Assembly (NCBI GenBank): GCA_029939505.1
Contig: JAOZSV010000012.1
Location: forward strand, 1 to 40,418
DNA: 40,418 bases
Origin: Thiotrichaceae bacterium
GTDB taxonomy: Bacteria; Pseudomonadota; Gammaproteobacteria; Beggiatoales; Beggiatoaceae
Reading direction: 5' to 3'
Part shown: piece by piece, positions 5,905-32,579 of the stretch
Position numbering within the stretch: position 1 is the stretch's first letter
Layout: every line of letters begins with the position of its first letter
Translations under genes and position numbers: made by a program
Notes under the pieces: generated by a model
Seen by the model: the letters and a program-made list of their open reading frames with translations, nothing else
What the model was told of the DNA's origin: nothing
The model's database searches: none

Positions 5905-5917
5905 AGCCTTATATCAC

Positions 5918-8027: not shown

Positions 8028-8127
8028 CACGCAATTTTTTTGAAAGGGCCGTTTCTAAGAATTTATTTATCTGAACGTCTATATATTATAGATTTTCAGA
8101 AAATTTCAAAATACAGGTTATTCAATA

Positions 8128-8355: not shown

Positions 8356-8360
8356 TCAAT

Positions 8361-8395: not shown

Positions 8396-8421
8396 CTAAT
8401 TACAGTGATTACGTGGAAAAA

Positions 8422-9675: not shown

Positions 9676-9678
9676 TTA

Positions 9679-9819: not shown

Positions 9820-9824
9820 TATTA

Positions 9825-10180
9825 GGAAATATACATAATGATCACTAAGATAGCAATTCTATTGACAACTATTGACATGTCCACGTCATGAGTGCGAGGC
9901 AAAAGTGTGAATAAGGGAGCTATCTTCCCATTATCTCCTCGCCTAATGGAAGCTTGGAGTTACTTTTGGCTTGAACCCATTTTTTTTAACGTGGAAGGCT
10001 TTTCGAGGTTAAAGTTTTTTCTTCAAAAAAACTTTAACCTCGAAACCACTTTCAAGCTGGCTTCTATGATACTTTGCATTTTTCTAAATGTCAAGTTTTT
10101 AGATCAAAAGTCAAATAAATGTTTTCGAGGTTCAAGTTTTTTTTAATTAAAAAAACTTGAACCTCGAAAGTTATCAATAA
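9825..10180. other. Intergenic stretch with two palindromes, no convincing gene
   Basis: It contains CGAGG palindromes at 10,001-10,045 and 10,123-10,169. An 84-codon open frame crosses both, but its residues are mostly repeat-derived and I do not consider it a gene. Nothing else was recognised. Confidence 0.6.
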
Positions 10181-10191
10181 TTTTGTGTACT

Positions 10192-11186: not shown

Positions 11187-11215
11187 ATTCAAAGTAAAAA
11201 AAATATCCAAATTAA

Positions 11216-12040
<825 letters not shown>

Positions 12041-12068
12041 CTAAACAACTTTGTATAAATTATTTTGA

Positions 12069-12112
12069 ATTCGAGGTTTGAGTTTTTGCACGCAGAAACT
12101 CAAACCTCGAAT
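12069..12112. repeat. CGAGG palindrome (R2) after dapB
   Basis: Arms ATTCGAGGTTTGAGTTT, loop TGCACGCA. It may end dapB transcripts by folding, but no T-tract follows. Confidence 0.85.
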
Positions 12113-12188
12113 TGATTTCAAGGCTCTTTTATCAGCCATATTTCAGGATGATTTCTGCTTTTATTTGGTAGGGTGTGTAGGAATTATA

Positions 12189-12246
12189 GTCTTCTATTTA
12201 TCGCATTTACAGTGCGGCAAAAGTTTAAGAAGGCGATAAATAAGAC
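12189..12246 (+). promoter_or_regulatory. Possible stem-loop in the leader of the first GGDEF-like gene
   Basis: ATTTATCGC at 12,196-12,204 pairs with GCGATAAAT at 12,233-12,241. A further five pairs (GTCTT with AAGAC) lie beyond a two-base bulge. It is about 40 bp before the start codon. A role in expression is a guess. Confidence 0.3.
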
Positions 12247-12284
12247 GATAAGTGGCACATTATTAAAAGAATTACAATCTAACC

Positions 12285-13187
12285 ATGAACCGCAAAAAAC
12301 TCAAACTTTATTCTATACTTTCTCAGCTTCCGTTCTTACGAAATAGCTACACTTTTAAAATCATAATTATTGTATTTATGGGTTGTCTCATCCCATTGCT
12401 CACATTAATCGTCTATTTGACAGTAAGTTCATCGTTGAGTATTGATGGCAACCTTAATTTTCTTGTTGTGGTATTAATTGCTACATTGGTTGGGATGGTC
12501 AGCATTCTATTATTATTATATTGGCTACTCTATCCAATTACATTAACTTCAACAACACTCCATAAATATCTCAATGAAGAAGAAAACCCTTCACTTCCTG
12601 CGGGATTTCAGGATACCGTTGGTCAATTAATGACAGATGTTCAATATACGGTTGAAAAACTTAATTTACTCAATCAGTCGTTAAAATCTTCTCCCGCAAT
12701 CGATCCATTAACGGGCATACTCAACCGTTCAGCGAGTAAAAAACGTTTGCGTCAAGAAATGGCGCGTACTCGTCGTGAAAATAAGCAAATGCTAATTGCT
12801 TTGTTCAAAATTGAGCAATTTAAAAAAATCAACGAGCAATTTGGATATCGTATTGGTGATACTTGCTTAATACAAGTTGTTGATATTCTTTCCAAAAGTA
12901 TTCGCGAAGGGGATTGGTTAGCGCGTTGGAAAGAGGATGAATTTCTCGTGGTGTTGTGGGATTTTCATGATATAAGCCCTATAAAAGTCTTAAAGCGAAT
13001 TCAGCAACCAATAAAAATACCTATAGAAAAGCCATTGCAAATCACTTTAAGTATTGGTGCATCTGAGTATAAGGGGAATATTAATGTAGATATAAAAATC
13101 GAATTGGAAAGACTGATCATTCTCCTTGAAGAAGCTTTGTCTGAAGTTAAACAGAATGGTATAAATATCGTCTCTGTGAATGGTTAA
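12285..13187 (+). CDS. Membrane protein with HAMP and degenerate GGDEF domains (paralog 1)
   Basis: 300 residues. Two membrane helices (about 24-45 and 58-82) are followed by a HAMP-like segment ending DTVGQLM, then a GGDEF-fold domain from about residue 140 (DPLTGILNRSA). The catalytic signature is lost: GGDEF is replaced by KEDEF at 216-220, and the metal-binding DxDxFK region reads KIEQFK. The inhibitory I-site RxxD, five residues before the signature, is kept (R207-E-G-D210). This suggests a non-catalytic protein that may bind c-di-GMP, acting at the inner membrane. A close paralog lies at 15,115-16,014, with an MscS channel between them. Domain identity is firm; c-di-GMP binding is inferred. 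Confidence 0.85.
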   Translation: MNRKKLKLYSILSQLPFLRNSYTFKIIIIVFMGCLIPLLTLIVYLTVSSSLSIDGNLNFLVVVLIATLVGMVSILLLLYWLLYPITLTSTTLHKYLNEEENPSLPAGFQDTVGQLMTDVQYTVEKLNLLNQSLKSSPAIDPLTGILNRSASKKRLRQEMARTRRENKQMLIALFKIEQFKKINEQFGYRIGDTCLIQVVDILSKSIREGDWLARWKEDEFLVVLWDFHDISPIKVLKRIQQPIKIPIEKPLQITLSIGASEYKGNINVDIKIELERLIILLEEALSEVKQNGINIVSVNG

Positions 13188-18535: not shown

Positions 18536-20032
18536 ATGGACACATATAAAACCGCCTTTGCCAAAGGTTTTGACAAAACAATTCAGGCACTGATTAAAAA
18601 AACACAAAACCTATATTTAATTGACGACATTCCTTGGGTAGTGGGTTATAGTGGTGGAAAAGACTCAACAGCCGCTTTACAACTGGTTTGGTATGCCATT
18701 TCTCAATTGCCCAAAAAAAAGCGTTTCAAGCCTGTTTATGTGATTAGTACAGATACATTGGTTGAAAATCCAATCGTTGCCTTATGGGTACATTATTCTT
18801 TAAAAGAAATGAAAAAAGCCGCGGTTGAACAAGATTTACCGATAACCTCACATCGTCTGACTCCAGAAGTGCCTGATCGATTTTGGGTTAATCTCATCGG
18901 GCGCGGATATCCCGCCCCGCGCCCTAAATTTCGCTGGTGTACCAGTCGTCTTAAAATAAATCCCTCTAATCATTTTATCAACAATATGATTCGGCAAAAC
19001 GGGCAAGTTATTTTGATTCTCGGAACCCGCAAGGCGGAAAGCTCAGTACGTGCGGCTAATATGAAAAAACATGAGAAAAGCAGTACCCGTGAGCAATTAT
19101 CGACTAATGCCAGTTTACCGAATAGTTGGATTTATACCCCCTTGGCAGATTGGACAAACGATGATGTTTGGTACTATATCACACAAGTCAAAAACCCTTG
19201 GAACTATGACAATAAAGCACTCCTGGATATGTACCGAGGCGCGACCGCAGATGGCGAATGTCCCTTAGTGGTTGATACCAGTAGCCCTAGCTGTGGTGAT
19301 AGTCGTTTTGGTTGTTATGTTTGCACGATGGTTGAACAAGATAAATCTATGCAAGCAATGATTCAAAATGATGATGAGAAAAGATGGATGCTTCCAATGA
19401 TGGAACTTCGCAATCGCTGGCTTAATATAAAAACGGATCGCAAAAATCGTGATTTTCGCAGGATGAACGGTGCTTTAAAGGTTATCAGTGGACGATTGGT
19501 GCATGGACCTTATAAACAGGCCTATCGTGAAAAATTATTAGCCGCATTATTGGAAGCACAAGAAGCGGTTCAAAAAAATGGTCCGCCAGAAGTCAAGGAA
19601 CTGGAATTGATTACCCATGATGATTTGGAAGAAATCCGTCGTCTTTGGGTGATGGAAAAACATGAGATTGAAGATAATTTACCCAAAATTTATCAGCGTA
19701 TTATGGGTAAAACTTATCAGGGCAAACGCCTTAATGAGCATCAAATTTTTCAGCCAGAAGACATCGCGCTTTTAAAAGACTTATGTCAACAAGAAGGGGA
19801 CGATGAAAAAATTCATTTTCAACTGATCCGTGAACTGTTACATATCGAACAACAACACCGTACTATGGCTCGCCGCGCTGGGCTTTATGATGCCCTGGAT
19901 CATGCTCTTGAACGTAACGTTTTTATCAATGCTTCTGATGCTGAAGAATTTGCATTGAGGCGTGAATCTGCAAAAGCAAAGGCGCGAGGTGAAAACGTGC
20001 CTGTGTCCAATTTACCGCTTTTTAAAAAGTAA
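18536..20032 (+). CDS. dndC: DNA phosphorothioation protein DndC (PAPS-reductase/ATP-PPase fold), solitary
   Basis: DndC activates the DNA backbone for sulfur insertion with DndA/IscS, DndD and DndE. The ATP-pyrophosphatase loop SGGKDSTAALQLVW lies at about 40-53. Conserved blocks typical of DndC follow: STDTLVENPIV, RPKFRWCTSRLKI, GTRKAESSVRA and the cysteine motif SCGDSRFGCYVCTMVEQDKS expected to hold a 4Fe-4S cluster. The length of 498 residues is normal. The start, ATG 18,536, lies 17 bp after the FtsK-like gene, so the two are probably cotranscribed. No dndB, dndD, dndE or dndFGH is present in the window, which is unusual. Either the rest is elsewhere, or this is an orphan that survived decay or has another use. 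Confidence 0.93.
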   Translation: MDTYKTAFAKGFDKTIQALIKKTQNLYLIDDIPWVVGYSGGKDSTAALQLVWYAISQLPKKKRFKPVYVISTDTLVENPIVALWVHYSLKEMKKAAVEQDLPITSHRLTPEVPDRFWVNLIGRGYPAPRPKFRWCTSRLKINPSNHFINNMIRQNGQVILILGTRKAESSVRAANMKKHEKSSTREQLSTNASLPNSWIYTPLADWTNDDVWYYITQVKNPWNYDNKALLDMYRGATADGECPLVVDTSSPSCGDSRFGCYVCTMVEQDKSMQAMIQNDDEKRWMLPMMELRNRWLNIKTDRKNRDFRRMNGALKVISGRLVHGPYKQAYREKLLAALLEAQEAVQKNGPPEVKELELITHDDLEEIRRLWVMEKHEIEDNLPKIYQRIMGKTYQGKRLNEHQIFQPEDIALLKDLCQQEGDDEKIHFQLIRELLHIEQQHRTMARRAGLYDALDHALERNVFINASDAEEFALRRESAKAKARGENVPVSNLPLFKK

Positions 20033-20073: not shown

Positions 20074-20138
20074 TTGGTGTTTTTTGGGGATTCCTTGGAT
20101 AAGAAATGCGAATTACGCAATCATGTAGAGGGGTACTT

Positions 20139-20387
20139 ATGAACTTATCAAAGATTTATCAAGATTGGCGAGATAATACTTTACAAGAAGGACGAAAAGA
20201 AGGACGAAAAGAAGGACGTTTAGAGGAACGGAGTGTTTTTGTGAAAAACTTACTCTTGTTTCGATTTGGTACGATTGATGATGCATTGTCACAGATCATT
20301 AAACCGTTGCTCCAATTACCACCCCAGGATTCATCACGTTTGCTTTTGCAATCCTCTCGTGAAGAACTGTTGGCGAAGTTGAGTTAG
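20139..20387 (+). CDS. C-terminal fragment of an Rpn/PD-(D/E)XK-type transposase-like protein
   Basis: 82 residues from ATG 20,139, with GAGGGG upstream. An in-frame start at 20,106 is possible. It begins MNLSKIYQDWRDNTLQEGRKEGRKEGRLEE, with the EGRKEGR heptad track. LLLFRFGTIDDALSQIIKPLLQL follows, then EELLAKL. This pattern is typical of the tail of Rpn-family recombination-promoting nucleases and related DUF4351-like proteins. The nuclease domain itself is missing, so this is either a truncated remnant or a small stand-alone version of the tail. It is flanked by palindromes. Confidence 0.6.
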   Translation: MNLSKIYQDWRDNTLQEGRKEGRKEGRLEERSVFVKNLLLFRFGTIDDALSQIIKPLLQLPPQDSSRLLLQSSREELLAKLS

Positions 20388-20572: not shown

Positions 20573-23500
20573 TTAAAAAATGTTTACCCTTTCCGGCAAT
20601 TGTGCATACCAAAGCAATGCCCAATCATATCCTTCCAAATCACTGCGATTAAGCATTCCTGTCGATAAATCAGTCAGCACGCCCGCTTTTTCACCCTCGA
20701 CGGGCAGCGCGTAACTACGAATCATCTGTAACGTCTTACAAGCGTTAACTATGTCAGTGTTCAATGGCGTTAGGCTGACTTGGAGTGGTAGCGCATTTTC
20801 ATTGGGCGGGTGAAATAAATGAATGCCCTCTTCACCCTGTAATAGGGTATGTAAACGTGGTCCTTTTATTTGTAAATAGCGGTTGCCCGGTGATGGTGGT
20901 AGGCGCGTCGTTTCTAGCCCAAGATAGGCGAGTGTTTTTTCGTAAGCAGTTAAAAGATAATCTAACTCTTTCTTGCCGCTGCCATGGACTCGTGAATGCA
21001 GCGTTAATGTCAATACCTCTAACTGGTTTAATTCTATCCCTTGACAGAAGAAGCCTAAAAATGTCACATTCATTAATAAATTCAACCAGTTACCTTGAGA
21101 TTCACGAATCAGTTTGGGAGCAACGACATACATTTCTTCTAAATAATCACGAATGTCTTGATGGGCATAAAAATCGGCACTGTTAATACAGTGTTCTTTA
21201 GTCCAACTGAAAGAAAAACGCGCTGGTGCTCCTTCTGCTGTGAAACGAATTTCTATTGGATCACGCGCCGTTTCCATCGCCCAAAGCATTTCATCTAATT
21301 GCTCTTTGATTTCAAATAGGGACTCTTGCATTGTCAAGAGTAACCGCATTTCGTCGGAGGCATCGCTCAGTTCATCCCCCTTTCGCTTGGCATAAAGCCG
21401 CTCTCTTAATTCAGAAACAAATTCAAACAGTTGTTTCACATTTTCCAATGAAGCATCTTGAACTGTGAGAACATGGTCTTTTTTTTGTGCAGGGCATAAG
21501 GCTGTAATGTGGGGCTGAAGATGTTCGTTGTTCCAGTCAATATCTAAGATAATAGGTTGCTTCGCACTTAAACCGATGAGCTGCGTTGCGGCTAATGCCG
21601 TTAAGTCGCGTTCAATCGCCCGTTTGAGGGCGCGTCCCCCTAAGATCGCATCAAATCCACGCTGTGCGACAGAAAGCAGTGCCTTTTCTGAGATATTAAG
21701 AATTGTCGTGCGACGCACAAAGCCATCTCGTTGTAATAAATTGCTGAGTTGTTGGCGGGTGATGGTAATGGCATCTTGTAATTCTAAGGATTTAAACACC
21801 ACCATGCGATCAATACGATTTAATAATTCTGGACGAAAAAAGTCTTCGACGGCGGCACGATAGCTACTGGCTTGATTTTTCGCGTCTCTTTCGACAAATC
21901 CAAATTTTTGACTGACTTGTTCTGCCCCTAAATTGGAAGTCAGAATAATAATGGTATTGGTAAAATCGGTCGTGCGCCCCAAAGCGTCTGTGAGCCGTCC
22001 TTCTCCCAAGACTTGTAAGAGTAAATCATGGATGGCTTGATGCGCCTTTTCAATTTCATCTAATAGCAAGATACAAAAAGGGCGATGACGAACTTGTGTC
22101 GTTAAGAGGCCATCCGGTCGTCTCCAATCGCCAATTAATCGCCCAATATCGGCTTCGGTGACAAATTCATTCATATCTAGCCGTATCAATTGCGATTCAT
22201 CGGTGAATAAATAACGGGTTAATACTTTAGCGGCTTGTGTTTTACCAACACCGGTAGGACCAATAAAAAGTAGGGTTGCCATCGGCTTTTTAGGGTCTTG
22301 CAGCCCTGCTTTGATGGTTTGTATCACATTAACCAAGCAATTGACCGCTTCCGGTTGACCAATCAGTTGAGCGGCGATGCTTTGTTGAACTGAATCGAAA
22401 CGTAATGTTTTTTGGCGATCAAGTAAATCAATCTTCATCAGACTGATTTCGCTAACCGCCGCTTCAACTTGTGCGATGCCGACGGTACCATGACTATGTT
22501 TAGCCGCCAAACGTTCAAGAAAACTGACCACATTACCCGGCATCGCTGTACTTCGTAGCAAAGAGTGGGTCAAAGCAAAGACACGTTCTATCGCTTCATT
22601 ATCAATTTCGCATTCCTGTTCTTGTTCTAAACGTGCCCGTTCTAATAATGCGATATGTGCCGTTTCAGCCATATTTGACTCATTCAGACGGAACACTTGA
22701 CATAAATCGGCAAAACGGCGATCCGTTTCCATGACAATATTCCACTCTTCAGGACTGGCTTCGGCAATAAATGTCAACGCCCGTTCTTCTAAATAAGGCT
22801 TTAGCACATCACCGAGCGTTAGCGAATTTTGAGCACTTTTACCTATACGGAATAGGGCGACTAGATTGTCAATAAATAAGCGTGGACGAGCGTAGGCTGG
22901 CGTTTTTGGTTGGATGATATATTCCAAAATAGATTCAAAGCGTCGTTGCCACATACCCACAATGCTCATGCCAGCAATCACGCGATTAGGATCAATATGC
23001 CATAAGGTGGCGACTTTGGATTTGGGTTGACTCTCTTGTGCCTTAATATAACGGTAAAATGTTTCATGTAGCAACGTCGTGCGTCCACAACCCGGTGGTC
23101 CTACAATGATTACCGCTGTCATTGTTGAACCAAAAATGAGTTTGCTGAAGTTTTCAACTTGTTCTTCGCGCAGCGAAGCGCGTTTTAGACGGCTTGGATA
23201 ATTATCGCGTAAATTGGTTCCCACACGCGCAATTTCTGTTGCTCCCGAAAAATGTTTTTGTGAACCTGATAAAGAAGCAAATAATCCTTCCATATCTTGT
23301 TCAAACGGAAATTTTGCGCGTTTAACATTGACTTGCAGTGAAACGGTTGTGACAAATTCTCCACCGTTAGCATAGTAGTCATCAACATAAAAATCGACGT
23401 TTTTTCGCCGATTCTGCAATTGATCATGTACAATCGTCGTCAATTGTTCAGTTAAACGACCATGTTGAATAACGTCTTTGCTCACAATGGCAAAAACATT

Positions 23501-23836
23501 ATCAAAACTGGGCAAACATAAGATTTGATGATCTTTAAGGGAAAAACGCACGACGGCAAAGTCGCCAAAAATCATGTGGGGGCCAAGGGAAAAGCAAAGC
23601 CTTTTTAATTCAAACTTGAGGTTAGGATTAAAAGCGAACCATAACAGTTCTTCAATGGTTTCACGTTTCGTTTCAAAGGTACGAAAGAGTCGGCGCACAT
23701 CTCTTGTGAGTAAATCCACCGCGTCACGAAAACGTTTAGCGGTACGGTTCGGATTTTCTAAAAATAAGGGACGTAAGTGATATCCTTCCTTTGAAGGTGT
23801 GACGATAACGGGAAATTCTAAAGGGATTGTGGGCAT
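20573..23836 (-). CDS. Large ClpA/B-like two-ring AAA+ ATPase with N- and C-terminal extensions
   Basis: 1087 residues. The first 220 residues are an N-terminal domain I do not recognise. The first AAA module has GPPGCGRTT at 246-254, with Arg for the Walker A Lys, and RLFIDN instead of a DE Walker B, so it is probably inactive. The second module is intact: GPTGVGKT at 526-533, LLLDEIEKAH near 588, TSNLGAEQ, and arginine-finger region FRPELLNRID. There is no ClpB-type middle domain. After about residue 775 comes a 300-residue extension found in no standard Clp. Near 985-1010 it reads YLQIKGPRLHTLLQGEEGIH, which resembles by eye the region before the GGQ loop of class I release factors, without GGQ. 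An FGF sits where ClpA has its ClpP-binding IGF loop. It stands alone on the minus strand. It is possibly a conflict or stress unfoldase. Confidence 0.85.
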   Translation of the reverse strand: MPTIPLEFPVIVTPSKEGYHLRPLFLENPNRTAKRFRDAVDLLTRDVRRLFRTFETKRETIEELLWFAFNPNLKFELKRLCFSLGPHMIFGDFAVVRFSLKDHQILCLPSFDNVFAIVSKDVIQHGRLTEQLTTIVHDQLQNRRKNVDFYVDDYYANGGEFVTTVSLQVNVKRAKFPFEQDMEGLFASLSGSQKHFSGATEIARVGTNLRDNYPSRLKRASLREEQVENFSKLIFGSTMTAVIIVGPPGCGRTTLLHETFYRYIKAQESQPKSKVATLWHIDPNRVIAGMSIVGMWQRRFESILEYIIQPKTPAYARPRLFIDNLVALFRIGKSAQNSLTLGDVLKPYLEERALTFIAEASPEEWNIVMETDRRFADLCQVFRLNESNMAETAHIALLERARLEQEQECEIDNEAIERVFALTHSLLRSTAMPGNVVSFLERLAAKHSHGTVGIAQVEAAVSEISLMKIDLLDRQKTLRFDSVQQSIAAQLIGQPEAVNCLVNVIQTIKAGLQDPKKPMATLLFIGPTGVGKTQAAKVLTRYLFTDESQLIRLDMNEFVTEADIGRLIGDWRRPDGLLTTQVRHRPFCILLLDEIEKAHQAIHDLLLQVLGEGRLTDALGRTTDFTNTIIILTSNLGAEQVSQKFGFVERDAKNQASSYRAAVEDFFRPELLNRIDRMVVFKSLELQDAITITRQQLSNLLQRDGFVRRTTILNISEKALLSVAQRGFDAILGGRALKRAIERDLTALAATQLIGLSAKQPIILDIDWNNEHLQPHITALCPAQKKDHVLTVQDASLENVKQLFEFVSELRERLYAKRKGDELSDASDEMRLLLTMQESLFEIKEQLDEMLWAMETARDPIEIRFTAEGAPARFSFSWTKEHCINSADFYAHQDIRDYLEEMYVVAPKLIRESQGNWLNLLMNVTFLGFFCQGIELNQLEVLTLTLHSRVHGSGKKELDYLLTAYEKTLAYLGLETTRLPPSPGNRYLQIKGPRLHTLLQGEEGIHLFHPPNENALPLQVSLTPLNTDIVNACKTLQMIRSYALPVEGEKAGVLTDLSTGMLNRSDLEGYDWALLWYAQLPERVNIF

Positions 23837-24223: not shown

Positions 24224-24309
24224 GCTTCATCTGGGTTATTATCCAAAATGATGGCTAATTTGACGGGTAATAATAATTGACTGATTGATTCATCACTGTT
24301 CTTCCACAA
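24154..24309 (-). CDS. Small 51-residue ORF overlapping the methylase end
   Basis: It starts at TTG 24,309 inside the methylase's last codons (17-base overlap) and reads WKNSDESISQLLLPVKLAII, ending SLEVEVELR. It is acidic and helical in look. The same C-terminus (SIMPYDLES) is found frameshifted at 28,148-28,221, showing that this reading frame was once duplicated and was probably a real gene. I do not know the family. A small accessory or antitoxin-like protein is possible. The start is uncertain because no ATG is available. Confidence 0.4.
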   Translation of the reverse strand: MWKNSDESISQLLLPVKLAIILDNNPDEAISIMPYDLESLRDSLEVEVELR

Positions 24310-27300
24310 TCTTAATTTCTTCGTCTGTCAATCCGTAGAGTTGATAGACGAGTTGATCTATTTGTGCTTCTAGGGCGGAGGTTTCAGCGGTGGGGTTGGT
24401 GCGTTTGGTGGTTAGGATTTTGTCAACCAAAGTGATGAAAGGTTGTTCTTGAGTTTTGGAAATTTTGGGAATAGGTAAATTTTCCAAAAAAGCTTTTTTA
24501 TACCGATATTTTCCTACTAATTCACCACCAGCGTAAAATTTCTTAAAAAGATAGGTGATAAATTTTGAATTAAGTAAAGATATTAGATATTTTAAACTTT
24601 CTCCAGTTATGAAAAAGAGGGTGGCTTCAGGATAAAATTTCTCTGTATCATAGTGAAACTGAGGTTCACTTACTATTTCAGAAAAAATGATTTTTTGTTT
24701 TTCTAATTCATTTAAATAAGCACAATTCCTAAGATTTGTCCAATCTTCTCCTTGATCGGCTCTCAATTGAGCTTTCTCTTGAAATTGAGTAAGATACTGA
24801 TAAATAATGGGATAATTTTTTTTCACCTCTATTCTTTTTATAGCTTGTTTTTTCAAGCCATTGTGTGAATTAATTATCCATAAACCATAAAAATGACAAT
24901 AATACCTTCTTACCTCCCTACCTCTTAAAATGGGTTTAATGATTTCAGCATTTTTCCCATCTTCTGCTATCAATTTATCTTTGATTTCACTGTTAATAAT
25001 GAAAGCTTCATTGCAACCTGTAAGAATTCCTCTGTAAAATGCAATATTCCATTTTTTAAGTGGTGTTCCTATTTGTTCAGCTTTTTCTTTAATACTTAAT
25101 TCGATATGAGGAACAATTGCCCAAATATCAGATGATAAGTGATTTGCAATGATCTTATTTTTTTCAAAATACTCAACGATAGATATCTCGTTTGATAAAA
25201 TAATCTTAAATTGAACAGCTTGAGTTGCTTTTCGGTTTTTAGCTTTTTGAAGTATTAAAATATTTGAGTGAACAATTGCCGTTTCAAAGATCATGGTTTG
25301 CCCAAAATCTAATAATTTTAATGGATTAGCTTTTTCGACAAAAAATTGCCTTAGACTTTTCCCATAATTAGCTCGCATCCATTTATTAGAAGTGATAAAG
25401 GTTAATATTCCATTTTTTTTCAAGAAATAATAACCCGACTCATAAAAAAGGCTATAAACATCTCCAGTCGCACTAAATGTTTGGTAGTGACTTTTTAAGG
25501 CTTTTAAGTCTGGCTTTTTGCTAACAGAAAAATAAGGCGGATTCCCAATCACCACATCAAACCCATCTTTAATCCCAAACATCCACTCAGCATCAAAAAA
25601 ATCCGCCGACGCATTTTGATCATAAGGATTCCACTTTGCCAAGCGTTCCGTTGTCTCACGGGCAAAGCCATCTTTTAATAGCAGTTCGCCAATCTCTGCG
25701 CGAATGTGTTGATCATCTTCACGATACTTATTTTTTGTCTTGGGCGTTCGCGCCGTGAAATAGCTTGCCCGCACTTCAGCCAGTTCTTTTTCCTTAGCTT
25801 CAAGTTTAAGATTGCGGAGCAGGGCTTGTTTGGGTTTATCCAATCCAATCAAAGTGTTAGCAGCGACAAATTTCGTTTCAAGATTGGGTAACGGGCGCAC
25901 CCCACGATCTTCCCGGTTCTTATTAATTTTTTGATCCACCAGTAGCGAAATGAAAAAACGTAATTTGGCAATTTGTACGGCAATCGGTTGAATATCAATA
26001 CCAAAAATACCGTTTTGAATCAGATAAAGTTTGCGCCCGTAGTCTAATTCATTGCGACTAAAGGCTTGTTCAATATCTTCAATCGCTTTATCCCGAAAGG
26101 TGCTATCGGGAATTTCATTGGCTTTTGCGATTTGTTGCTCTTTCCAACGCGCATTATTGGGATCAAGTTTGCTCAAAATAGACACCAATTTATGCAAGCT
26201 GCCCATTGGAAATGCCCCAGAACCACAAGCGGGATCAAGCATTTTTATCTGATCTATAGCCGTTATCAATTGTTGTACTTCATCTTCATTAAAGCCATGA
26301 TTTTCCTCATTGTAGCCAACTAGGGTGCGGAGTTGCGTATTGAGTTGCTGGTTTTTTGAATCCTTGCCCAATTGGGTTTCCAGATAGGCAATCAAAGTTT
26401 CATCAACCATATAGTTGACGATTTCACGGGGCGTATAAAAAGAGCCTGTTTGTTTACGGGCAGTAGTACCAGTTTCTGGATTATAAGCCGCTAACAGATT
26501 TTCAAAGACTTTGCCCAATAATTCGGGATCAAGGGCAATTTCTTCTTCAATCGGGGTATTTTCAGCGATAGTGAATTTATAGCAATTGAAAATATTGATA
26601 ATGCCTTGCACTTGGTATTTTTTATTTTTCGTGCCATAAGCGGCATTTAAATCAACGCTTTGTGGTGTGTCGGTGAAAAACAGAATATCCGGCACATAAA
26701 TTTCGTTATCAGTTCGTTCTGAAAAACCATCAATGCGTAATACCGTTTCTTTGCCATTTACCTTGATTTTTTTATCCAAGCACTCAAACAGCCCCCCATT
26801 GAGAAATGGAATATCAGCAAAAAACACATCAAAGGCATCTTTAGCATTTCTAAAATACCCTTCATAACGATAAACATTATGCACTAGATAATTTTGATCA
26901 CGTTGCCCGTTTTTACCTAAGCCCCTAAATTTGCGATTATTGGGTTTATCAAGAGTATTCATTTCTTGATTTAAAGTCGCAAAAAACAGATTTTGTAAAA
27001 TCGCTTTATAATAGGTACTGCCCTTAGCATCCTTATAATAAAGAATTCCATCCAAGAGACTTTTATCAAATAATGTGGCGGGTATTAGCTCCCGCTCTTT
27101 GAGAAACCAAACAAAAATGAGGCGCGTAATGAGACGAATCACACTGATATGATTGCGCGTTTCATCATCTCCCGCCTCTTTAGGAAAAGTAACCGATTGC
27201 ACTGCCCAAAAATACCAATCGGCAATTTCTTTGAAAAAGCGTTTATTGAGTTCAGAAGTATCTAATACTTTTTCCCAAGCCTGATGGAGTGCGACAAAGC

Positions 27301-27904
27301 TGTTAATTTTTTGACGGGTGCGTAAGACTTCCAAAGAAAAATCACAGAGAATTTCAAGATGAGCGCAGTGCGGGTTATTAAAATGAATGTCTTTAATTAG
27401 AGTGACTTTTTCAAGAACATCTTTGGATTCATCGCGTTTATGTAGCCGCCGATTGATAATGGCAAGCGTTAAAGTATCGCCATATTTAAATAATACCAAG
27501 ACGGGCTTATGGAATAACTTGTTGATTTTTCTGGTAATTTTAGATAAAGCGGTGCGATTATAGCTTTTTTCTTGTAAAGTGATGGCAAAAAATAAATAAG
27601 ATTCTATGATCGTGTTATCAATTTTTTGATTGACACTAAATAAATCAGCAGACGCAGACATTTCTTCATCGGTTAATTGAAAGAGTAGGGAGACTGACTG
27701 CCATTCATTAAATAGTGCATTGGTTTGATGAAATTTTTGCCCATCAAGCAAGGCGATAAATTCATCGGGCGTATCTCCATCTATACGTTTTTGGCTGTCA
27801 TAGCCCAAGGCATTAAAAAAAGCAATGGCATTGTCTTTCATCGTGCCGTGACTGAAGTTTTTTAATGTGTTTGAGATGCTTGTTTTGATTTTTGTGGTGT
27901 TCAT
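24293..27904 (-). CDS. Eco57I-like DNA N6-adenine methyltransferase / type IIG-like protein
   Basis: 1203 residues. SAM motif I is DPACGSGAFPMG near residue 556 and catalytic motif IV is GNPPYF near 786. The N-terminal 480 residues carry the block found in this family (LIFVWFLKERELIPATLFD). The region TGSFYTPREIVNYMVDETL just before motif I is typical of Eco57I/PglX-type enzymes. The C-terminal third is a probable target-recognition domain (FYAGGELVGKYRYKKAFLENLP). No PD-(D/E)XK nuclease motif was recognised in the N-terminus, so cleavage may need a partner, plausibly the helicase at 29,271-32,579. ATG 27,904 overlaps the stop of the 78-residue ORF by four bases (ATGA), implying translational coupling. 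Confidence 0.9.
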   Translation of the reverse strand: MNTTKIKTSISNTLKNFSHGTMKDNAIAFFNALGYDSQKRIDGDTPDEFIALLDGQKFHQTNALFNEWQSVSLLFQLTDEEMSASADLFSVNQKIDNTIIESYLFFAITLQEKSYNRTALSKITRKINKLFHKPVLVLFKYGDTLTLAIINRRLHKRDESKDVLEKVTLIKDIHFNNPHCAHLEILCDFSLEVLRTRQKINSFVALHQAWEKVLDTSELNKRFFKEIADWYFWAVQSVTFPKEAGDDETRNHISVIRLITRLIFVWFLKERELIPATLFDKSLLDGILYYKDAKGSTYYKAILQNLFFATLNQEMNTLDKPNNRKFRGLGKNGQRDQNYLVHNVYRYEGYFRNAKDAFDVFFADIPFLNGGLFECLDKKIKVNGKETVLRIDGFSERTDNEIYVPDILFFTDTPQSVDLNAAYGTKNKKYQVQGIINIFNCYKFTIAENTPIEEEIALDPELLGKVFENLLAAYNPETGTTARKQTGSFYTPREIVNYMVDETLIAYLETQLGKDSKNQQLNTQLRTLVGYNEENHGFNEDEVQQLITAIDQIKMLDPACGSGAFPMGSLHKLVSILSKLDPNNARWKEQQIAKANEIPDSTFRDKAIEDIEQAFSRNELDYGRKLYLIQNGIFGIDIQPIAVQIAKLRFFISLLVDQKINKNREDRGVRPLPNLETKFVAANTLIGLDKPKQALLRNLKLEAKEKELAEVRASYFTARTPKTKNKYREDDQHIRAEIGELLLKDGFARETTERLAKWNPYDQNASADFFDAEWMFGIKDGFDVVIGNPPYFSVSKKPDLKALKSHYQTFSATGDVYSLFYESGYYFLKKNGILTFITSNKWMRANYGKSLRQFFVEKANPLKLLDFGQTMIFETAIVHSNILILQKAKNRKATQAVQFKIILSNEISIVEYFEKNKIIANHLSSDIWAIVPHIELSIKEKAEQIGTPLKKWNIAFYRGILTGCNEAFIINSEIKDKLIAEDGKNAEIIKPILRGREVRRYYCHFYGLWIINSHNGLKKQAIKRIEVKKNYPIIYQYLTQFQEKAQLRADQGEDWTNLRNCAYLNELEKQKIIFSEIVSEPQFHYDTEKFYPEATLFFITGESLKYLISLLNSKFITYLFKKFYAGGELVGKYRYKKAFLENLPIPKISKTQEQPFITLVDKILTTKRTNPTAETSALEAQIDQLVYQLYGLTDEEIKIVEEQ

Positions 27905-28137
27905 TCACTAAATAGTCTCTTGAGCCAATTCGTAAAAAGATAAGCAATTTCTGTATTCGGTTGTAAAGTATGAGCAGTAATTGCTATGCCAAAAGGTTTG
28001 CCGGGTTCATCTTGCCATGCAAGATAGGTGTAAATTTCGGCTTTGCTTAAATGGACTTTTTTAAACTGAGTCACTTTTCGGCGATAGGCACATTTAACAC
28101 AACTTTGTGCAGTCGCTAATGTATCGGGTAAAGCCAT
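27901..28137 (-). CDS. Small 78-residue protein coupled to the methylase
   Basis: Starts ATG 28,137 after GAGGACAAAAAA and ends overlapping the methylase ATG by four bases. It has an early CVKCAYRRK (CxxC), then KAEIYTYLAWQDEPGKPFGI and ITAHTLQPNTEIAYLFTNWL. I do not recognise it. Overlap with the methylase suggests a partner protein or leader of the same operon. Its first two codons and ribosome-binding site are part of the 86 bp duplication, so its 5' end may be a recombinational join. Confidence 0.6.
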   Translation of the reverse strand: MALPDTLATAQSCVKCAYRRKVTQFKKVHLSKAEIYTYLAWQDEPGKPFGIAITAHTLQPNTEIAYLFTNWLKRLFSE

Positions 28138-28221
28138 TTTTTTGTCCTCAACACAGATCCACTTCGACTTCTAATGAATCTCTTAAAGAAAGATTCAAGA
28201 TCATAAGGCATAATACTAATA
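28132..28221. repeat. Direct duplication, copy B (90 bp)
   Basis: Second copy of 24,138-24,223, with two substitutions and an extra tandem AAAG. Its end at 28,221 coincides with the start of the composite palindromic element. Confidence 0.88.
28148..28221 (-). pseudogene. Frameshifted 3' remnant of a 51-residue ORF homolog
   Basis: The minus strand encodes SIMPYDLES, then shifts frame because of a 4-base duplication. If corrected it would end SLEVEVDLC and stop at 28,148. The 5' part is replaced by the composite element at 28,221. Confidence 0.55.
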
Positions 28222-28481
28222 CTCGATCATCAAGTTTTCTCGTTTTCGAGGTTTTTGTTTTTTGAAGCACTCGAAACCAAACAATAACTACAAGGATTGT
28301 ATATAAGAAAGGATTGGATCGATGCTCGTTTTTAATCCCTTTTTATATACAATCCTTGTAGTTAGTTAGTGTTTTTAATCCATTCGAGGTTCAAGTTTTT
28401 TAAAGAAAAACTTGAACCTCGAATCTTATATACAATCCTTGTAGTTACTGTTGTCAGACGAAAAAACTTGATGATCGAGTT
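28221..28481. mobile_element. Composite palindromic element, copy B
   Basis: The outer arms are CTCGATCATCAAGTTTTCTCG on the left and its near complement at 28,460-28,481. Inside are ACAAGGATTGTATAT / ATATACAATCCTTGT inverted segments (28,292-28,372, and again near 28,430) and two CGAGG palindromes (28,243-28,276 and 28,382-28,424). Its left 110 bp match, in reverse, 82-237. It holds no gene. Confidence 0.75.
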
Positions 28482-28521
28482 CTACTAAAAGCACATTTTC
28501 ATCACTTAAAAAGAGTGCTAT

Positions 28522-28539
28522 TGTTAACTTTTGTTAACA
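28522..28539. promoter_or_regulatory. TGTTAAC/GTTAACA inverted repeat after the TA pair
   Basis: Seven-base perfect arms with a TTTT loop, about 18 bp past the antitoxin stop codon. It could help end transcription or be a protein site; the sequence does not decide. Confidence 0.3.
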
Positions 28540-28556
28540 TAAATGAATCGGATAAA

Positions 28557-28862
28557 TTAAGTTAAAACATCCAAACCCTTTTGCTCGACCAAACTCAATA
28601 ATTTCAGAGATGGCCCGTTAGGAAGTTTTTTGTCAGACTCCCACTTCTGCACGGTAGATAGGCTGGTATTTAAATACGCTGCAAACACAGACTGACTGAC
28701 TTCATTTTTCAAACGTATCAACTTGATTTGGTTCGCGCTGTATTGTTTGACTGATGGTAAGCACAAGGATTCAATTTCTCGCAGTGTTTTCAGCTTCATA
28801 GCACCGGCTTCATGCAAATCTAGCGCAGTTTCATGTACCACGTCAAGGATTGATTTATTCAT
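28557..28862 (-). CDS. HTH antitoxin (HigA-like)
   Basis: 101 residues with an XRE-type helix-turn-helix at about 45-97: IKLIRLKNEVSQSVFAAYLN, then STVQKWESDKKLPNGPSLKL. Such antitoxins neutralise the toxin and repress their own operon. The ATG at 28,862 overlaps the toxin's last codons by eight bases, so the pair is cotranslated in toxin-first order, which is the HigBA arrangement. The operator should lie upstream of the toxin at 29,230-29,270. Confidence 0.9.
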   Translation of the reverse strand: MNKSILDVVHETALDLHEAGAMKLKTLREIESLCLPSVKQYSANQIKLIRLKNEVSQSVFAAYLNTSLSTVQKWESDKKLPNGPSLKLLSLVEQKGLDVLT

Positions 28863-29229
28863 CGTTGTTCACCTCAATTAACTTTTTTTGCTCAACCAAT
28901 TTTTTTAATGTGGCATTATCATATCCTAATATATCAGCGGCTAAAATTTGCAAAGCTTCCAGTTCTGTCGCACTAAGATTATCTTGCCTATTTTTAGCAA
29001 AGCCATAAATAAAAAACGCTTTTTCTTCGATTCTATAAGCAAGAATAGTACGCGCACCACCACGTTTTCCTCTGCCTGGTAAAGGTATCCGTTTCTTTAC
29101 AACATAACCACCGAGTTCAGCATCTATCAAACCTTGCTCCATTTCTGCAACCGCTGTTATCAAGACACTATCCACAAGTTTTTCTTTTTTAGCCCATTTG
29201 TTAAACCAACGATTTTTGAATATTTGCAT
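28855..29229 (-). CDS. RelE/HigB-like toxin (DUF1044 type)
   Basis: 124 residues, a predicted mRNA interferase of the RelE fold. Recognisable blocks are FKNRWFNKWAKKEKL at the start, GGYVVKKRIPLPGRGKRGGARTILAYR in the core (reported here in two parts: VVKKRIPLPGRGKRGG and ARTILAYR), and FFIYGFAKNRQDNLS. It starts ATG 29,229, 41 bp after the helicase stop, and overlaps the antitoxin. It sits between the helicase and the methylase, a place where TA modules often stabilise defence operons (inference). Confidence 0.9.
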   Translation of the reverse strand: MQIFKNRWFNKWAKKEKLVDSVLITAVAEMEQGLIDAELGGYVVKKRIPLPGRGKRGGARTILAYRIEEKAFFIYGFAKNRQDNLSATELEALQILAADILGYDNATLKKLVEQKKLIEVNNDE

Positions 29230-29270
29230 CTCTCATGTCTCCATTTATTTTTCTCGTTCCGACAAATATA

Positions 29271-32200
29271 TCAATTATCAGTTGATTTAATCACCAGCCA
29301 AGAAATCAATTCAAAATCTTCGCTATCTTTTATCTGCTGTTGGGTGTCAAGTAATTTTCCACCCCGCCCTGCAAATAGACTACCAGAATGACGTTTTTTA
29401 AACAAGCGCACGATTGATGCAACGGCTTGATCAAGTAAGTTATTGTAAAATCCCATCGAAGCTCCCTCTTTTGTCTCTCTATCAAACAAGCGACATAAGT
29501 CTTGATAAGATTCAGTTTTGCCAACGCAGAGTTTTTGGAAAACATGCAAAGTTTCTTTGGGGCGAGTAAAGTTATATTTTACCGAACCATTATCAAGCAG
29601 ATAAACCAAAAAGAAAGGTTGCAATGGATTGATATTTTCAGATTTTCCCTTTTTTTGAGCAAACTGTTTTGGTTTGTATTCTAAGCAAAAAATAACCCCA
29701 GGGCTTATTTGCCAATTGTCATCATGATAAGGTGGCACAATCGCATATAAACCATAAGGGGCTTGTTCTAATTGCCGTTTTTTTTGTTCAAGGTAATGGC
29801 TTAACTCAATCCGAAAATCGTCCAAGGTAAATTCATTTAAAGTGACTCCCTCATCAAAATCTTCTAAATCCAATATTTCAGTTTTGAGTCGTTTAAGTTG
29901 TTGATCCCGAAAGCTGAGTTCTTCTTGGGCTTCTTCTGGTGTGAGGAGATTATCCTTAGAAGTCGCGGCAATATCCACTAAAGCCATCCTTGCTTCTACC
30001 CTATCTTTCAAATTAATATAATCATCTAAATCTTCTGTCGGCCAAAAATTGATTAATTGCACCGTTTGGTTACGACTATTAAGTCGATCAATGCGCCCAA
30101 AGCGTTGAATAATCCGCACCGGATTCCAGTGAATATCATAATTAATCAGGTAATCACAGTCTTGCAAATTTTGCCCTTCAGAAATACAGTCGGTGGCAAT
30201 CAGTAAATCAATTTCTTGACTTTTATCTATATTATCAAAGATATCCCGTTCTTTTGATCGTGGCGAAAAGTGCATCAGGATATCTTCAAAATCACGTTTA
30301 CCAAAAGTGGTTTTATTGTTCTGCCCTGATACCATTGCAATATTGACGCTTAACTCTTTAGTCACCCATGTTTCTAAAGCCTTATAAAGATAAATGGCGG
30401 TGTCAGCAAAAGCGGTAAACACTAATATTTTACGGTTCGCTTTATTGTCTTTATTCGTAGTGGGTTGGCGTACCTTATTAGCAATCAGTTCTTTTAGTTT
30501 AGCCAGTTTAGCATCCCTTTCAATAGTAATGGATTTGGCAGCGTCATGGAGTGATTGCAATTGTGCCTTATCTTTCTGTAAATCACAGAGCCAAGCATCA
30601 ACATCAAGATGAGCAAATTTGAAAACGAGTTTCTGACCAATTTGTAAGGCCTCTTTTAATTCCTCATCATCCAGCGTCTCAGGATTTAATTCAGCAAAAT
30701 CAAAACTTGGGTTTTCCGATTGCGCTGTTTTAAAACGGGTTATTTTCTTTTCCAATGCATCAATTTTTGTCACCGTGCGTTCCATCGTGAGGGCAAAGGC
30801 ATGAACGGCACTTTCCAAGCGTTTCAAAAAATTGACTTTCATCATACCAATCAAATAATGCTCTTGTTGCTTAGATTGTTTGATTTTATAATGATTCTGA
30901 TATTCTGCTCTGACATAAGCCGATGGATTAAAAACCGCCAATTTGTACTTTGAAATAATTTCATTCAAGGCTTGATAAGATAGAAATTGCTTTTGTAGAT
31001 CGATGTCAGAACAAATCGCAATGGGTGGCAGCCGTTTTGGAAAATCTCCCAATTCGAGGATTGTCGCTTGATAATACTGTTCAATGTGTTTTCTGGAACG
31101 GGCAATCGTCAATTCATCCAATAATTTAAAGAAATCAGATCCCAGTTTTTCTAACAACGCATTTTTATGACGCACTCCGCTACGTTCTGCCCATTCTTTA
31201 AAATACTTTTGTGTGTTATCCAAAGTGGCTTTGATACTTTGAATACCTAAACTTTCTTGAAAAGCATTGTCTTGTCCTTCAGTAAAAAAAGCAAGCTGAT
31301 TGCGTAAATCTTTTAAATCCGTATTAACGGGCGTAGCGGAAAGTAGCAATACTTTGGTTTTTGCAACGCCTTCTTTTTTAATTATGTCATTCAACAAGCG
31401 GTTATAGCGGCTTTTACGAATAACTTGACCAAATTCATCTTTTTTATCGGCAGCGTTATTTCTAAAATTGTGTGATTCATCGATCACAACTAAATCAAAA
31501 GCACCCCAATTAATCGTTTTTAAGTCAATATCTCCCACATTGCCACTGTCACGGCTCAAATCCGTATGAGATAATACGGTGTATCGAAAACGATCTTGTG
31601 TAAAAAGATTACGTTTATCGCTGGTGTTGTTATATGTTGTCCAATTTTGTCTGAGTTTCTTGGGGCAGAGAACGAGTACATTATAATTAAGTAATTCAAA
31701 ATGCTTGATAACGGCAAGGGCTTCAAATGTTTTTCCCAAACCGACACTGTCAGCAATAATGCAACCATTATGTTTATCCAATTTCGCAATGGCACTTTTT
31801 ACCCCATCTTGTTGAAAATCATATAATTTATTCCAAATTTGTGTTTCATAAAAATGCGTTCTTGCCTCAAGAATACCCGTATTGGCTTGTTCTTCAAGGA
31901 ATTGTTTAAATAGATGATACAGGGTTTTGTAATAAACCAATTCTGGTGCTGTCGGCAAATACAATTGTTCTAAATATTCCAAAACGTCTGCTGTTACGTC
32001 TTTAACCCATTTTTCATCATCCCAAAGCGCGTCAAACCAGGCTTTTAAGTCACGGCGATCCTGATCACTATCAATGATGAGGTTAAGTTCAAGATTGGGC
32101 GTATTAGATAAACCCAAACCACGTAGGGTAAAATTAGAACTGCCTAAAATGGCTTTTTCTGCATCATTGTAGGCAATATGAACCATTTTGCCATGCAGAA

Positions 32201-32579
32201 AATTGGATTGTCGGATTGATTTAATTTGGACTTTTTGTTTAATCCAGTCGGCGCAATCCTTGGCAATCGGACTTTGTTGGAGGCGAACTTTGAGGCGTTT
32301 TAAGCCATCTTCTTCAATCCTAAAGGCTTTGAGCTCGGTTTTACTGGGATCAATAGACTTAATAAAGTGAGGTTCACCAAACAGAAATCGCATATTATCA
32401 ATATTGCTCAGTTTGGATTTTAATGCGGCAAAAGCATAGATCGTAAAATAAGCAGAGACAATTGATAGGCTTGAACCTGTTGCAATATTTTCTTGTAGAA
32501 AATCACCAACCGTACCCCTTTGGTGATTGTCTCGTAGGTGAGTATTTTCTGGTGAGTTTTGGCTTTGGTTTGGTGACAT
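29271..32579 (-). CDS. PLD-domain SNF2-family helicase
   Basis: 1102 residues. The N-terminal phospholipase D-like nuclease domain has IATGSSLSIVSAYFTIYAF near 30-50, HGKMVHIA near 130 and GSSNFTLRGL near 145. A single HxK motif is visible. The SNF2 motor follows: ADSVGLGKTFEALAV near 280, VVIDESHNFRN near 368, LLLSATPVNT near 412, and the C-terminal half with LLIATDCISEGQNLQDCDYL and RIIQRFGRIDRLNSR near 820. The last 250 residues are unassigned. Together with the Eco57I-like methylase this makes a restriction-like defence pair, with the PLD domain the best candidate for cleavage. ATG 32,579 is the start. No partners typical of BREX or DISARM are in the window. Confidence 0.9.
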   Translation of the reverse strand: MSPNQSQNSPENTHLRDNHQRGTVGDFLQENIATGSSLSIVSAYFTIYAFAALKSKLSNIDNMRFLFGEPHFIKSIDPSKTELKAFRIEEDGLKRLKVRLQQSPIAKDCADWIKQKVQIKSIRQSNFLHGKMVHIAYNDAEKAILGSSNFTLRGLGLSNTPNLELNLIIDSDQDRRDLKAWFDALWDDEKWVKDVTADVLEYLEQLYLPTAPELVYYKTLYHLFKQFLEEQANTGILEARTHFYETQIWNKLYDFQQDGVKSAIAKLDKHNGCIIADSVGLGKTFEALAVIKHFELLNYNVLVLCPKKLRQNWTTYNNTSDKRNLFTQDRFRYTVLSHTDLSRDSGNVGDIDLKTINWGAFDLVVIDESHNFRNNAADKKDEFGQVIRKSRYNRLLNDIIKKEGVAKTKVLLLSATPVNTDLKDLRNQLAFFTEGQDNAFQESLGIQSIKATLDNTQKYFKEWAERSGVRHKNALLEKLGSDFFKLLDELTIARSRKHIEQYYQATILELGDFPKRLPPIAICSDIDLQKQFLSYQALNEIISKYKLAVFNPSAYVRAEYQNHYKIKQSKQQEHYLIGMMKVNFLKRLESAVHAFALTMERTVTKIDALEKKITRFKTAQSENPSFDFAELNPETLDDEELKEALQIGQKLVFKFAHLDVDAWLCDLQKDKAQLQSLHDAAKSITIERDAKLAKLKELIANKVRQPTTNKDNKANRKILVFTAFADTAIYLYKALETWVTKELSVNIAMVSGQNNKTTFGKRDFEDILMHFSPRSKERDIFDNIDKSQEIDLLIATDCISEGQNLQDCDYLINYDIHWNPVRIIQRFGRIDRLNSRNQTVQLINFWPTEDLDDYINLKDRVEARMALVDIAATSKDNLLTPEEAQEELSFRDQQLKRLKTEILDLEDFDEGVTLNEFTLDDFRIELSHYLEQKKRQLEQAPYGLYAIVPPYHDDNWQISPGVIFCLEYKPKQFAQKKGKSENINPLQPFFLVYLLDNGSVKYNFTRPKETLHVFQKLCVGKTESYQDLCRLFDRETKEGASMGFYNNLLDQAVASIVRLFKKRHSGSLFAGRGGKLLDTQQQIKDSEDFELISWLVIKSTDN

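Follow-up and report, generated by a model that had tools for sequence, protein, structure and literature searches.

ClpA, ClpB and ClpC carry two tandem AAA+ rings, and RF1 and RF2 are class I release factors (RFs) of bacteria. A protein that resembles both is encoded on the minus strand of a contig from a Thiotrichaceae bacterium (JAOZSV010000012.1, positions 1 to 40,418; this whole 40,418-nucleotide stretch is called the window here). Like ClpA, ClpB and ClpC, this protein, which we call B, has two tandem rings with the Walker A and B motifs, Arg finger and sensor 2 of ring 2, and like ClpA it has an xGF loop. Unlike ClpA, ClpB and ClpC, it lacks the catalytic Glu and the RRF motif of ring 1 as well as the GYVG loop of ring 2, scores far below their NCBIfam cut-offs, and carries an RF-like tail. 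The tail resembles RF1 and RF2 in having the fold of domains 2 and 4, helices like those of domain 1, and the E-x-G-V-H and I-R-x-Y...D-x-R blocks in the same order; it differs from them in lacking the GGQ domain and a PxT/SPF-type loop and in being fused to a Clp motor. Ordinary RF1 and RF2 are also encoded in the genome to which the window belongs.

Clp-type AAA+ proteins that are thought not to thread their substrates with a normal pore loop are represented by the torsins, which, unlike B, have a single ring, reside in the eukaryotic endoplasmic reticulum and contain no RF-like part. Divergent members of the release factor families have been described as well. PrfH (RFH) is a relative of class I RFs whose recognition residues are altered and whose partner gene is constant; unlike the B tail, it retains GGQ and lacks domain 1, and no AAA+ part is mentioned in its description (PMC1586002). 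Balon, like the B tail, belongs to an RF family and has neither GGQ nor a stop-codon motif (NIKS), and it binds the A site of resting ribosomes; unlike B, it is a member of the aeRF1/Pelota family that functions in hibernation with EF-Tu, with no AAA+ part mentioned in its description (PMC10901736). Among the papers listed by searches of the open-access literature, none described an RF domain joined to a Clp protein, or the three-protein set reported below. A preliminary description of the window, made from the sequence alone, had suggested an RF-like tail for B, but it overlooked that B is one of three co-occurring paralogues, here named A, B and C.

The release factor-like tail of protein B

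The gene for B and the parts of its product, numbered in amino acids (aa), are as follows.

20573..23836, minus strand: protein B, a double-ring Clp/Hsp100-type AAA+ protein with an RF-like C-terminal extension (1087 aa, ATG start)
23171..23836, minus strand: alpha/beta N-terminal domain, aa 1-222 (modelled with AlphaFold as aa 1-225)
22487..23170, minus strand: AAA+ ring 1, roughly aa 223-450 (Walker A with R252, Walker B with DN, pore loop SIVG rather than KYRG, no RRF Arg fingers)
21575..22486, minus strand: AAA+ ring 2 with its small domain, roughly aa 451-754 (Walker A and B, Arg finger and sensor 2 kept)
20576..21574, minus strand: C-terminal extension, aa 755-1087, RF-like by structure model and profiles, GGQ domain absent
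21032..21448, minus strand: long helices, about aa 797-935, partly aligned with RF domain 1 (model helices 43-66, 74-102 and 132-181)
20576..21025, minus strand: equivalent of RF domains 2 and 4, aa 938-1087 (VIA-align superposition and profile match)
20813..20836, minus strand: GEEGIHLF, aa 1001-1008, equivalent of RF E-x-G-V-H-R (conserved columns in 49 sequences)
20657..20722, minus strand: IRSY...TDLSTG, aa 1039-1060, equivalent of RF2 IRSY...KDLRTG (conserved columns and second hhalign match)

The Clp kinship of B was evident from Pfam (AAA_2, E 8.6e-43; ClpB_D2-small, E 1.6e-6) and from a PDB sequence search, which matched ClpB, ClpC and ClpA, in some cases across both rings. The NCBIfam equivalog scores lay below cut-off (298 of 1232.1 bits for ClpB and 291.6 of 993.15 for ClpA). 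Clp_N was not found among the 25 listed of 33 Pfam matches of B and is present in the window's ordinary ClpA.

To examine the tail, we aligned aa 755-1087 of the window protein with 48 orthologues, without any release factor in the alignment, and folded it with AlphaFold on that alignment. The model had a mean pLDDT of 79.9 and a pTM of 0.76, with ten-residue pLDDT means of 87 to 94 over model positions 161-270, 77 to 88 over 281-320 and under 50 at 105-130. In the test that the preliminary description had named, which came out positive, Foldseek comparison of the model with the PDB gave 46 matches at E<=0.001 (best 1.2e-7), and all 46 were RF1, RF2, mtRF1/1a or termination-complex entries, counting as RFs five rows whose titles name no chain (8akn, 4v63, 4v4s and 9d7r twice). 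VIA-align of Foldseek's own candidates yielded Z values of 13 to 15 for the first 41 rows; PrfH structures were also among the fold matches, at Z 8.7 to 9.5. Where the alignment was confined to model positions 184-333 (aa 938-1087), this part superposed on RF domains 2 and 4 at 2.5 to 4.0 Å over 133 to 145 residues, and the alignment to 5dfe gave Z 13.2 with 2.5 Å over 133 residues. With the helices included, the superposition extended to 227 residues at 4.6 Å for 1gqe (Z 15.1, model positions 41-329) and to 192 residues at 5.2 Å for 1zbt. The place of the missing RF domain 3 would lie between model strands 262-270 and 281-289. No match at E<=0.001 was obtained against a viral fold library.

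Profile-profile comparison with hhalign, for which E-values refer to single comparisons, pointed in the same direction. The RF profile was built from 11 RF1 and 12 RF2 sequences out of 27 loci of the same genome group, the other loci having failed the filters; a sparser RF set had been used in an early profile comparison. Against RF1 plus RF2, the B tail gave two collinear matches with the GGQ domain missing between them: the first (E 4.2e-5, 96 columns) ends at E-x-G-I-H aligned with E-S/T-G-V-H, and the second (E 2.6e-4) covers I-R-x-Y...D-x-R. When the GGQ-domain columns were cut from the RF profile and one more distant row was added, a single match of 143 columns resulted (E 6e-9, probability 96%). 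The tail of A matched RF1 plus RF2 over 148 columns (E 3.4e-6; its alignment held 15 of 21 rows at first and all 21 later), and by profile it, too, is RF-like. With one more distant row on each side, the A and B tails matched each other over 289 columns at E 1e-7. The scores against RF1 plus RF2, 43.6 for the B tail and 51.8 for the A tail, stood above those of every control: the maximum over 100 column shuffles each was 25.1 (B) and 20.6 (A), a reversed RF alignment scored 25.1 (B) and 14.4 (A), and the maximum over 40 other families was 21.9 (B) and 21.6 (A). A forced global alignment (-glob) of the B tail to RF2 failed, and a Pfam search of the A tail returned scattered chance-like matches only.

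Conservation within the family follows the same blocks. The LQGEEGIH string that the preliminary description had placed in an RF-like setting without GGQ occupies aa 999-1006 of the window protein, and that placement agrees with the comparisons above. Across the 49 B sequences, the first E, the second G and the F of GEEGIHLF are invariant and the H nearly so, and R1040 and D1056 are invariant as well. GGQ is absent from all 49 B tails and all 21 A tails. In release factors, the loop that reads stop codons, PxT or SPF, is located after the E-x-G-V-H region. The corresponding stretch of B after GIHLF is of a conserved HxNPLPI type, and neither SPF nor PxT occurs within 20 residues after the GIHLF-type motif in any of the 47 tails (of 49) in which that motif was found. 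Because GGQ and the SPF/PxT loop are both absent, the B tail should, to judge by its motifs, neither read stop codons in the manner of an RF nor release peptides.

The RF likeness is thus supported by two independent routes, comparison of a structure model with the PDB and profile-profile comparison with controls. As shown by comparison of the modelled fold and the aligned sequences, the B tail is like class I RFs in both fold and sequence: it retains domains 2 and 4 together with part of domain 1, and it has lost the GGQ domain.

Ring motifs and the predicted motor

To compare the rings, we used a joint alignment of 21 A, 47 B, 21 C and 3 reference rows; the motif counts leave out two B sequences under 1030 aa (L014 and L049), giving 47 of the 49. 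In ring 1 of the window protein, R252 replaces the Walker A Lys in GPPGCGRT (aa 246-253), and Walker B reads LFIDN (aa 320-324), with DN instead of DE, just as the preliminary description had stated. Among the 47 B rows, the Lys position is occupied by R in 18 (10 counted as Thiotrichaceae-type, the window included, and 8 Bacteroidota) and by K in 29. The Walker B Glu is lost in all 47 (DN in 44, SN in 2 and NN in 1), while the 3 reference rows all have DE. The change from Lys to Arg in ring 1 is therefore not a rule of the family, and the loss of the Walker B Glu is general. The same loss extends to the paralogues: no row of A, B or C has DE in the ring-1 Walker B, and the RRF Arg fingers, present in 3/3 reference rows, are absent from 47/47 B, 21/21 A and 21/21 C rows. 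The ring-1 Walker A lysine is retained in every A and every C row. The ring-1 pore loop is KYLG or RYLG in 21/21 C and SIVG in 47/47 B rows, and none of the 21 A rows has YxG. Complementation of ring-1 Arg fingers between subunits was considered on account of a conserved DRRF in B and was dropped, the position of this motif being shifted.

Ring 2 of the window protein has GPTGVGKT (aa 526-533), LLLDE (590-594), the Arg finger NRID (673-676) and the sensor-2 motif GGRALKR (733-739). Walker A, DE and the Arg finger are retained in all 89 A, B and C rows, and sensor 2 in 88 of them, the exception being one C row with a gap. The preliminary description had called this ring intact, which holds for its ATPase motifs and not for its pore loop. 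In the window protein, the loop reads RLIGDWRRPDG, without GYVG; in B it has 11 residues, 5 fewer than the 16 of the 3 reference rows, and across A, B and C it has 7 to 12. GYVG occurs in 0/47 B and 0/89 rows altogether, and the one GFIG string seen in an A row sits in the tail rather than in the pore loop. Some aromatic residue is present in the loop in 38/47 B, 9/21 A and 1/21 C rows. An xG[FWY] triplet stands at the place of the ClpA IGF loop in 21/21 A, 40/47 B (FGF in the window protein) and 11/21 C rows.

Judged by these motifs, ring 1 looks unable to hydrolyze ATP, and ATP should be consumed in one ring of the two; in all three proteins, ring 1 would hold nucleotide at most and ring 2 would be the motor. 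A role of B as a classic threading unfoldase is doubtful because the ring-2 GYVG loop and the ring-1 catalytic Glu and Arg fingers are lost in A, B and C. The word unfoldase in the preliminary description is accordingly unsupported as stated.

The preliminary description had also proposed a fold search of aa 1-220. Our AlphaFold model of the N-terminal domain (aa 1-225; pLDDT 82.3, pTM 0.67; alignment of 47 of the 49 B sequences) had no Foldseek match in the PDB at E<=0.001. VIA-align superposed it on 6g1c_B with Z 7.3 and 2.9 Å over 83 residues, a Z value that is common without kinship according to the tool's own note, and the likeness to the HicB N-terminal domain (double-stranded RNA-binding domain-like) is too weak, at Z about 7, to name the domain after it. 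By profile, the N-terminal domain of A was linked to that of C (2.9e-4) and to that of B (1.4e-3), with no link between those of B and C (0.37). Nothing firm emerged from Pfam for the N-terminal domain of the C type.

Three paralogues and their genomic setting

A scan of genome contigs with B returned 55 loci, 48 of which hold a B orthologue, or 49 with the window. The orthologues are mostly full length and 34 to 98% identical in the best segment, the nearest (98%) coming from a Thiomargarita metagenome-assembled genome (MAG); shorter rows are L049 and a few at contig ends. In a Parabeggiatoa MAG (L014:10001-13271), B is split into two frames of 111 and 984 aa, which reflects a broken gene or an assembly error. 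The gammaproteobacterial hosts are Thiotrichaceae-type bacteria (Thiomargarita, Parabeggiatoa, Marithrix) and SZUA-21, and the hosts in the Bacteroidota are Saprospiraceae and others (Saprospira grandis, Aureispira, Phaeodactylibacter, Microscilla). The other 7 loci (L054-L060, from Saccharibacteria and Peribacteria) match about residues 196-766 only, at 27 to 30%.

On the SZUA-21 contig (L050), B is the middle one of three overlapping genes in an A-B-C operon: A at 3744-6896 (1050 aa), B at 6893-10183 (1096 aa) and C at 10170-12443 (757 aa). A second A-B-C set, in a gammaproteobacterium of another family (G552), likewise consists of overlapping open reading frames (ORFs; 2977-6207, 6179-9448 and 9400-11724). 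In L014, A is followed by B, and in L010, C is followed by B. Matches like A and like C, distinguished from each other by frame length and identity, were present in 20/20 genomes chosen for B, besides other Clp-type matches, and the A and C sequences were collected from those 20 genomes and the window's own. The A tail is 322 to 418 residues long; C has no tail.

We then searched 57 relatives, the window genome included; 13 of them had the B tail, 14 had the A tail and 13 had the N-terminal domain of C. All three occur in the same 13 genomes, and the remaining 44 have none intact. The fourteenth A-tail match is a decayed fragment with 3 stops (G044 C482:6214-6366, in L143), in a genome in which B and C were not found; since G055, of the same genus, has A, B and C, the set appears to have been lost as a whole in G044. 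Judged by equal contig coordinates, 10 of the 13 trio genomes are either the window genome or members of the earlier B-based set. Of the other three, G055 carries locus L013, and G033 and G050 are additions. Together, the 13 genomes span 7 of 46 genera, and the counts are therefore not independent.

Among 369 evenly drawn gammaproteobacteria, the B tail gave 4 matches, namely, the window genome, SZUA-21, G552 and one marginal partial match, and among 395 evenly drawn Bacteroidota, it was found in Saprospira itself together with one marginal match. G185 (7e-4) and G787 (1e-4) were rejected as relatives, their matches covering the helical part only. At the sensitivity used, neither the 72,556 plasmid records nor the 50,697 phage records contained a match to the tail. 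The full B protein matched 2279 plasmid records, none over 80% of its length; among the 10 listed of these, 8 are annotated Clp proteins and 2 carry no annotation. Two unnamed PHROGs families matched weakly, in at most 3/49 B members.

In a tree of ring 2 (11 sequences of each type and 7 reference rows, one of them, L057, a very long branch), A, B and C each formed one group, with support of 97/99, 99/99 and 85/88, respectively, apart from other Clp rows. The gene trees of the three proteins, built from 20 genomes without G007 and its broken B, have 13 to 15 of 17 splits in common. Read most simply, these trees suggest that the trio is older than the split between its Bacteroidota and gammaproteobacterial versions and that it was moved or inherited as a set, also in genomes in which the genes are now scattered.

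Among the clustered neighbours of the B genes, those common to gammaproteobacterial and Bacteroidota loci are an ABC-transporter ATPase of generic type (6 or 7 loci) and some small clusters of at most 4 loci, and several neighbour genes are common within the Bacteroidota only. Membership of B in an operon or island was rejected, as no clustered neighbour beyond the ABC-transporter ATPase and the small clusters was seen in both groups of loci. In 15 loci (L044:3423-6062, minus strand, and 14 other Saprospiraceae-type loci), a CbbX/SpoVK-like protein that has two AAA domains and is strongly conserved in its N-terminal part is encoded upstream of B and divergently, with other ORFs intervening in several. 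It was not retained as a fourth part of the system: its N-terminal part was found in 0/57 relatives, in a search without a known positive genome.

In the window, a defence-like cluster (24293-32579, minus strand) adjoins the B gene.

24293-27904, minus strand: type IIG restriction-methylase
28557-29229, minus strand: helix-turn-helix (HTH) and RelE-family pair
29271-32579, minus strand: PLD and SNF2 helicase protein of 1102 aa (PADLOC C3a139, E 1.4e-112)

A role of B in defence is unsupported, as the defence genes beside the window gene did not cluster with neighbours of other B loci in these comparisons. Elsewhere in the window, an ordinary clpS-clpA pair lies 12 kb from the B gene (36245-39029, plus strand), its ClpA serving as a comparison row, and it is followed by a Schlafen AlbA_2 protein (39206-40357). 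A DndC-type phosphorothioation sulfurtransferase (18536-20032, plus strand; TIGR03183, E 1.8e-202) is encoded beside an ftsK gene; its C-terminal part contains a sub-threshold Sp-DndD stretch (E 9.7e-6). An ORF of 93 aa (20106-20387, plus strand) has GRKEGRKEGRLEER repeats and no Pfam match, and resembles the tail of an Rpn/PD-(D/E)XK-type transposase-associated protein.

Possible roles of the A-B-C system

We regard it as a real possibility, though one we would rate somewhat below even, that B is part of a three-protein Clp/Hsp100-related AAA+ system, an A-B-C assembly driven by ring 2 whose RF-like heads dock on the ribosome. In such a system, A, B and C would form one mixed or stacked ring assembly, and the RF-like heads of A and B would place the machine on its target. 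On the ribosome, the heads would bind in or close to the decoding site of the A site, with no stop-codon reading and no peptide release. ATP hydrolysis by ring 2 would then push or twist the bound partners, such that stalled or resting ribosomes would be freed, dismantled or parked, and no chain would be threaded through a GYVG-lined pore. An action of B on ribosomes, which the preliminary description had suggested along with one on nascent chains, is plausible by analogy, and the A site is the natural candidate target because the parent RF fold binds there and because Balon, an aeRF1-family protein without GGQ or the NIKS stop-codon motif, occupies the A site of resting ribosomes (PMC10901736). 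The proposal in its fullest form, a machine by which giant and filamentous bacteria deal with stalled, damaged or resting ribosomes, made of three co-inherited Clp-type paralogues, two of them with GGQ-less RF heads, that docks at the A site and clears, splits or parks ribosomes through ATP, independently of transfer-messenger RNA (tmRNA)-SmpB and the Arf factors, is unlikely.

Several observations weigh against a ribosome-docking assembly. Rings of large subunits would be hard to fit at one A site. The recognition tip has been rebuilt, the RF stop-codon loop having given way to the conserved HxNPLPI-type stretch, which suggests that the tail may bind something else, and the residues that were kept look like fold core. 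None of the neighbouring genes examined points to translation. Whole-chain TM-scores to RFs are low (0.21 to 0.36, at root-mean-square deviations of 13 to 27 Å), and only domains 2 and 4 superpose tightly; we put this down to a different domain placement in the model together with the missing GGQ domain. Without the distant rows, the A and B tails match at only 4.6e-4 over 92 columns. With a distant row added and the RF profile uncut, the second-best match of the B tail is out of register (B 203-282 on RF 172-253, E 1.1e-4) and takes the place of the I-R-x-Y block. Lastly, the trio was rejected as a replacement for trans-translation or as the user of a private ClpP: the ClpP family is present in 13/13 trio genomes (G053 has only weak relatives, 1e-19) and 41/44 others, SmpB is present in 12/13 (not in G022) and 41/44, no search for tmRNA itself was made, and no trio genome has a second strong ClpP. 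Because ClpP and SmpB occur both with and without the trio, there is no sign of a replacement, and the trio seems to add to the usual ClpP/SmpB equipment.

The same features bear on the alternatives. It is conceivable, at rather less than even chances, that an RF-derived domain has been re-used as an assembly module, with the A and B tails binding each other or C and the substrate being non-ribosomal. The module is carried by A and B and not by C, and its tip has been remodelled and shows a conservation of its own, as would be expected for a new partner. By their roles in release factors, where fold core is set apart from recognition tip, E-x-G-I/V-H (E-x-G-V-H in the RFs), I-R-x-Y and D-x-R, the residues common to the tail and RFs, look like fold core rather than tip, which also suits an assembly module. 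Against this reading, the whole RF layout, including the domain 1-like helices, is kept, which is more than a simple dimer clip needs. Parking of ribosomes rather than their rescue, with heads that protect the A site of idle ribosomes and AAA+ rings that load and unload them in the manner of Balon plus a motor, is improbable. Both the GGQ domain and the RF recognition loop are lost in the B tail, and Balon, which lacks GGQ and NIKS, likewise sits in the A site of resting ribosomes, but it belongs to another RF family (aeRF1/Pelota), and the companion named for it is EF-Tu and not an AAA+ protein (PMC10901736). No stress-gene neighbourhood was noticed by eye, and no functional survey of the neighbours was made.

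We consider it just as improbable that A, B and C work with ClpP as ordinary unfoldases whose unusual tails pick the substrates. The xG[FWY] loop at the ClpA IGF place and the occurrence of ClpP in every trio genome fit such a set, but all three proteins have lost GYVG from ring 2 and the catalytic Glu and Arg fingers from ring 1, a second strong ClpP is lacking, and the tail, which follows the small domain of ring 2, would hang on the side facing ClpP. That the RF likeness is a modelling artefact or a convergence on a common alpha/beta fold was already disfavoured and is very improbable. Pfam PCRF was matched by only 1/49 B members (E 0.08) and not by the window protein, and the tail sequence profile found no RF chain among PDB sequences at E up to 10, giving helical chance-like matches only. 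Against this, the profile and structure routes reached the same result independently of each other, the two matched blocks keep their RF order on either side of the absent GGQ domain, and the controls are clean.

Hsp100 rings and the RF fold are both known; the three-part system and its layout are new. In the literature searched, class I bacterial RF folds were found free-standing, and here one is joined to an ATP motor, with the catalytic domain gone, in two sister proteins accompanied by a third. The loss of GYVG in A, B and C offers a natural test of how Clp rings function without threading. If the heads do not reach the ribosome, the system would be a clear case of a translation factor turned building block, and if they do, it would be a power-driven ribosome factor of a kind that none of the papers listed by the open-access literature searches describes.

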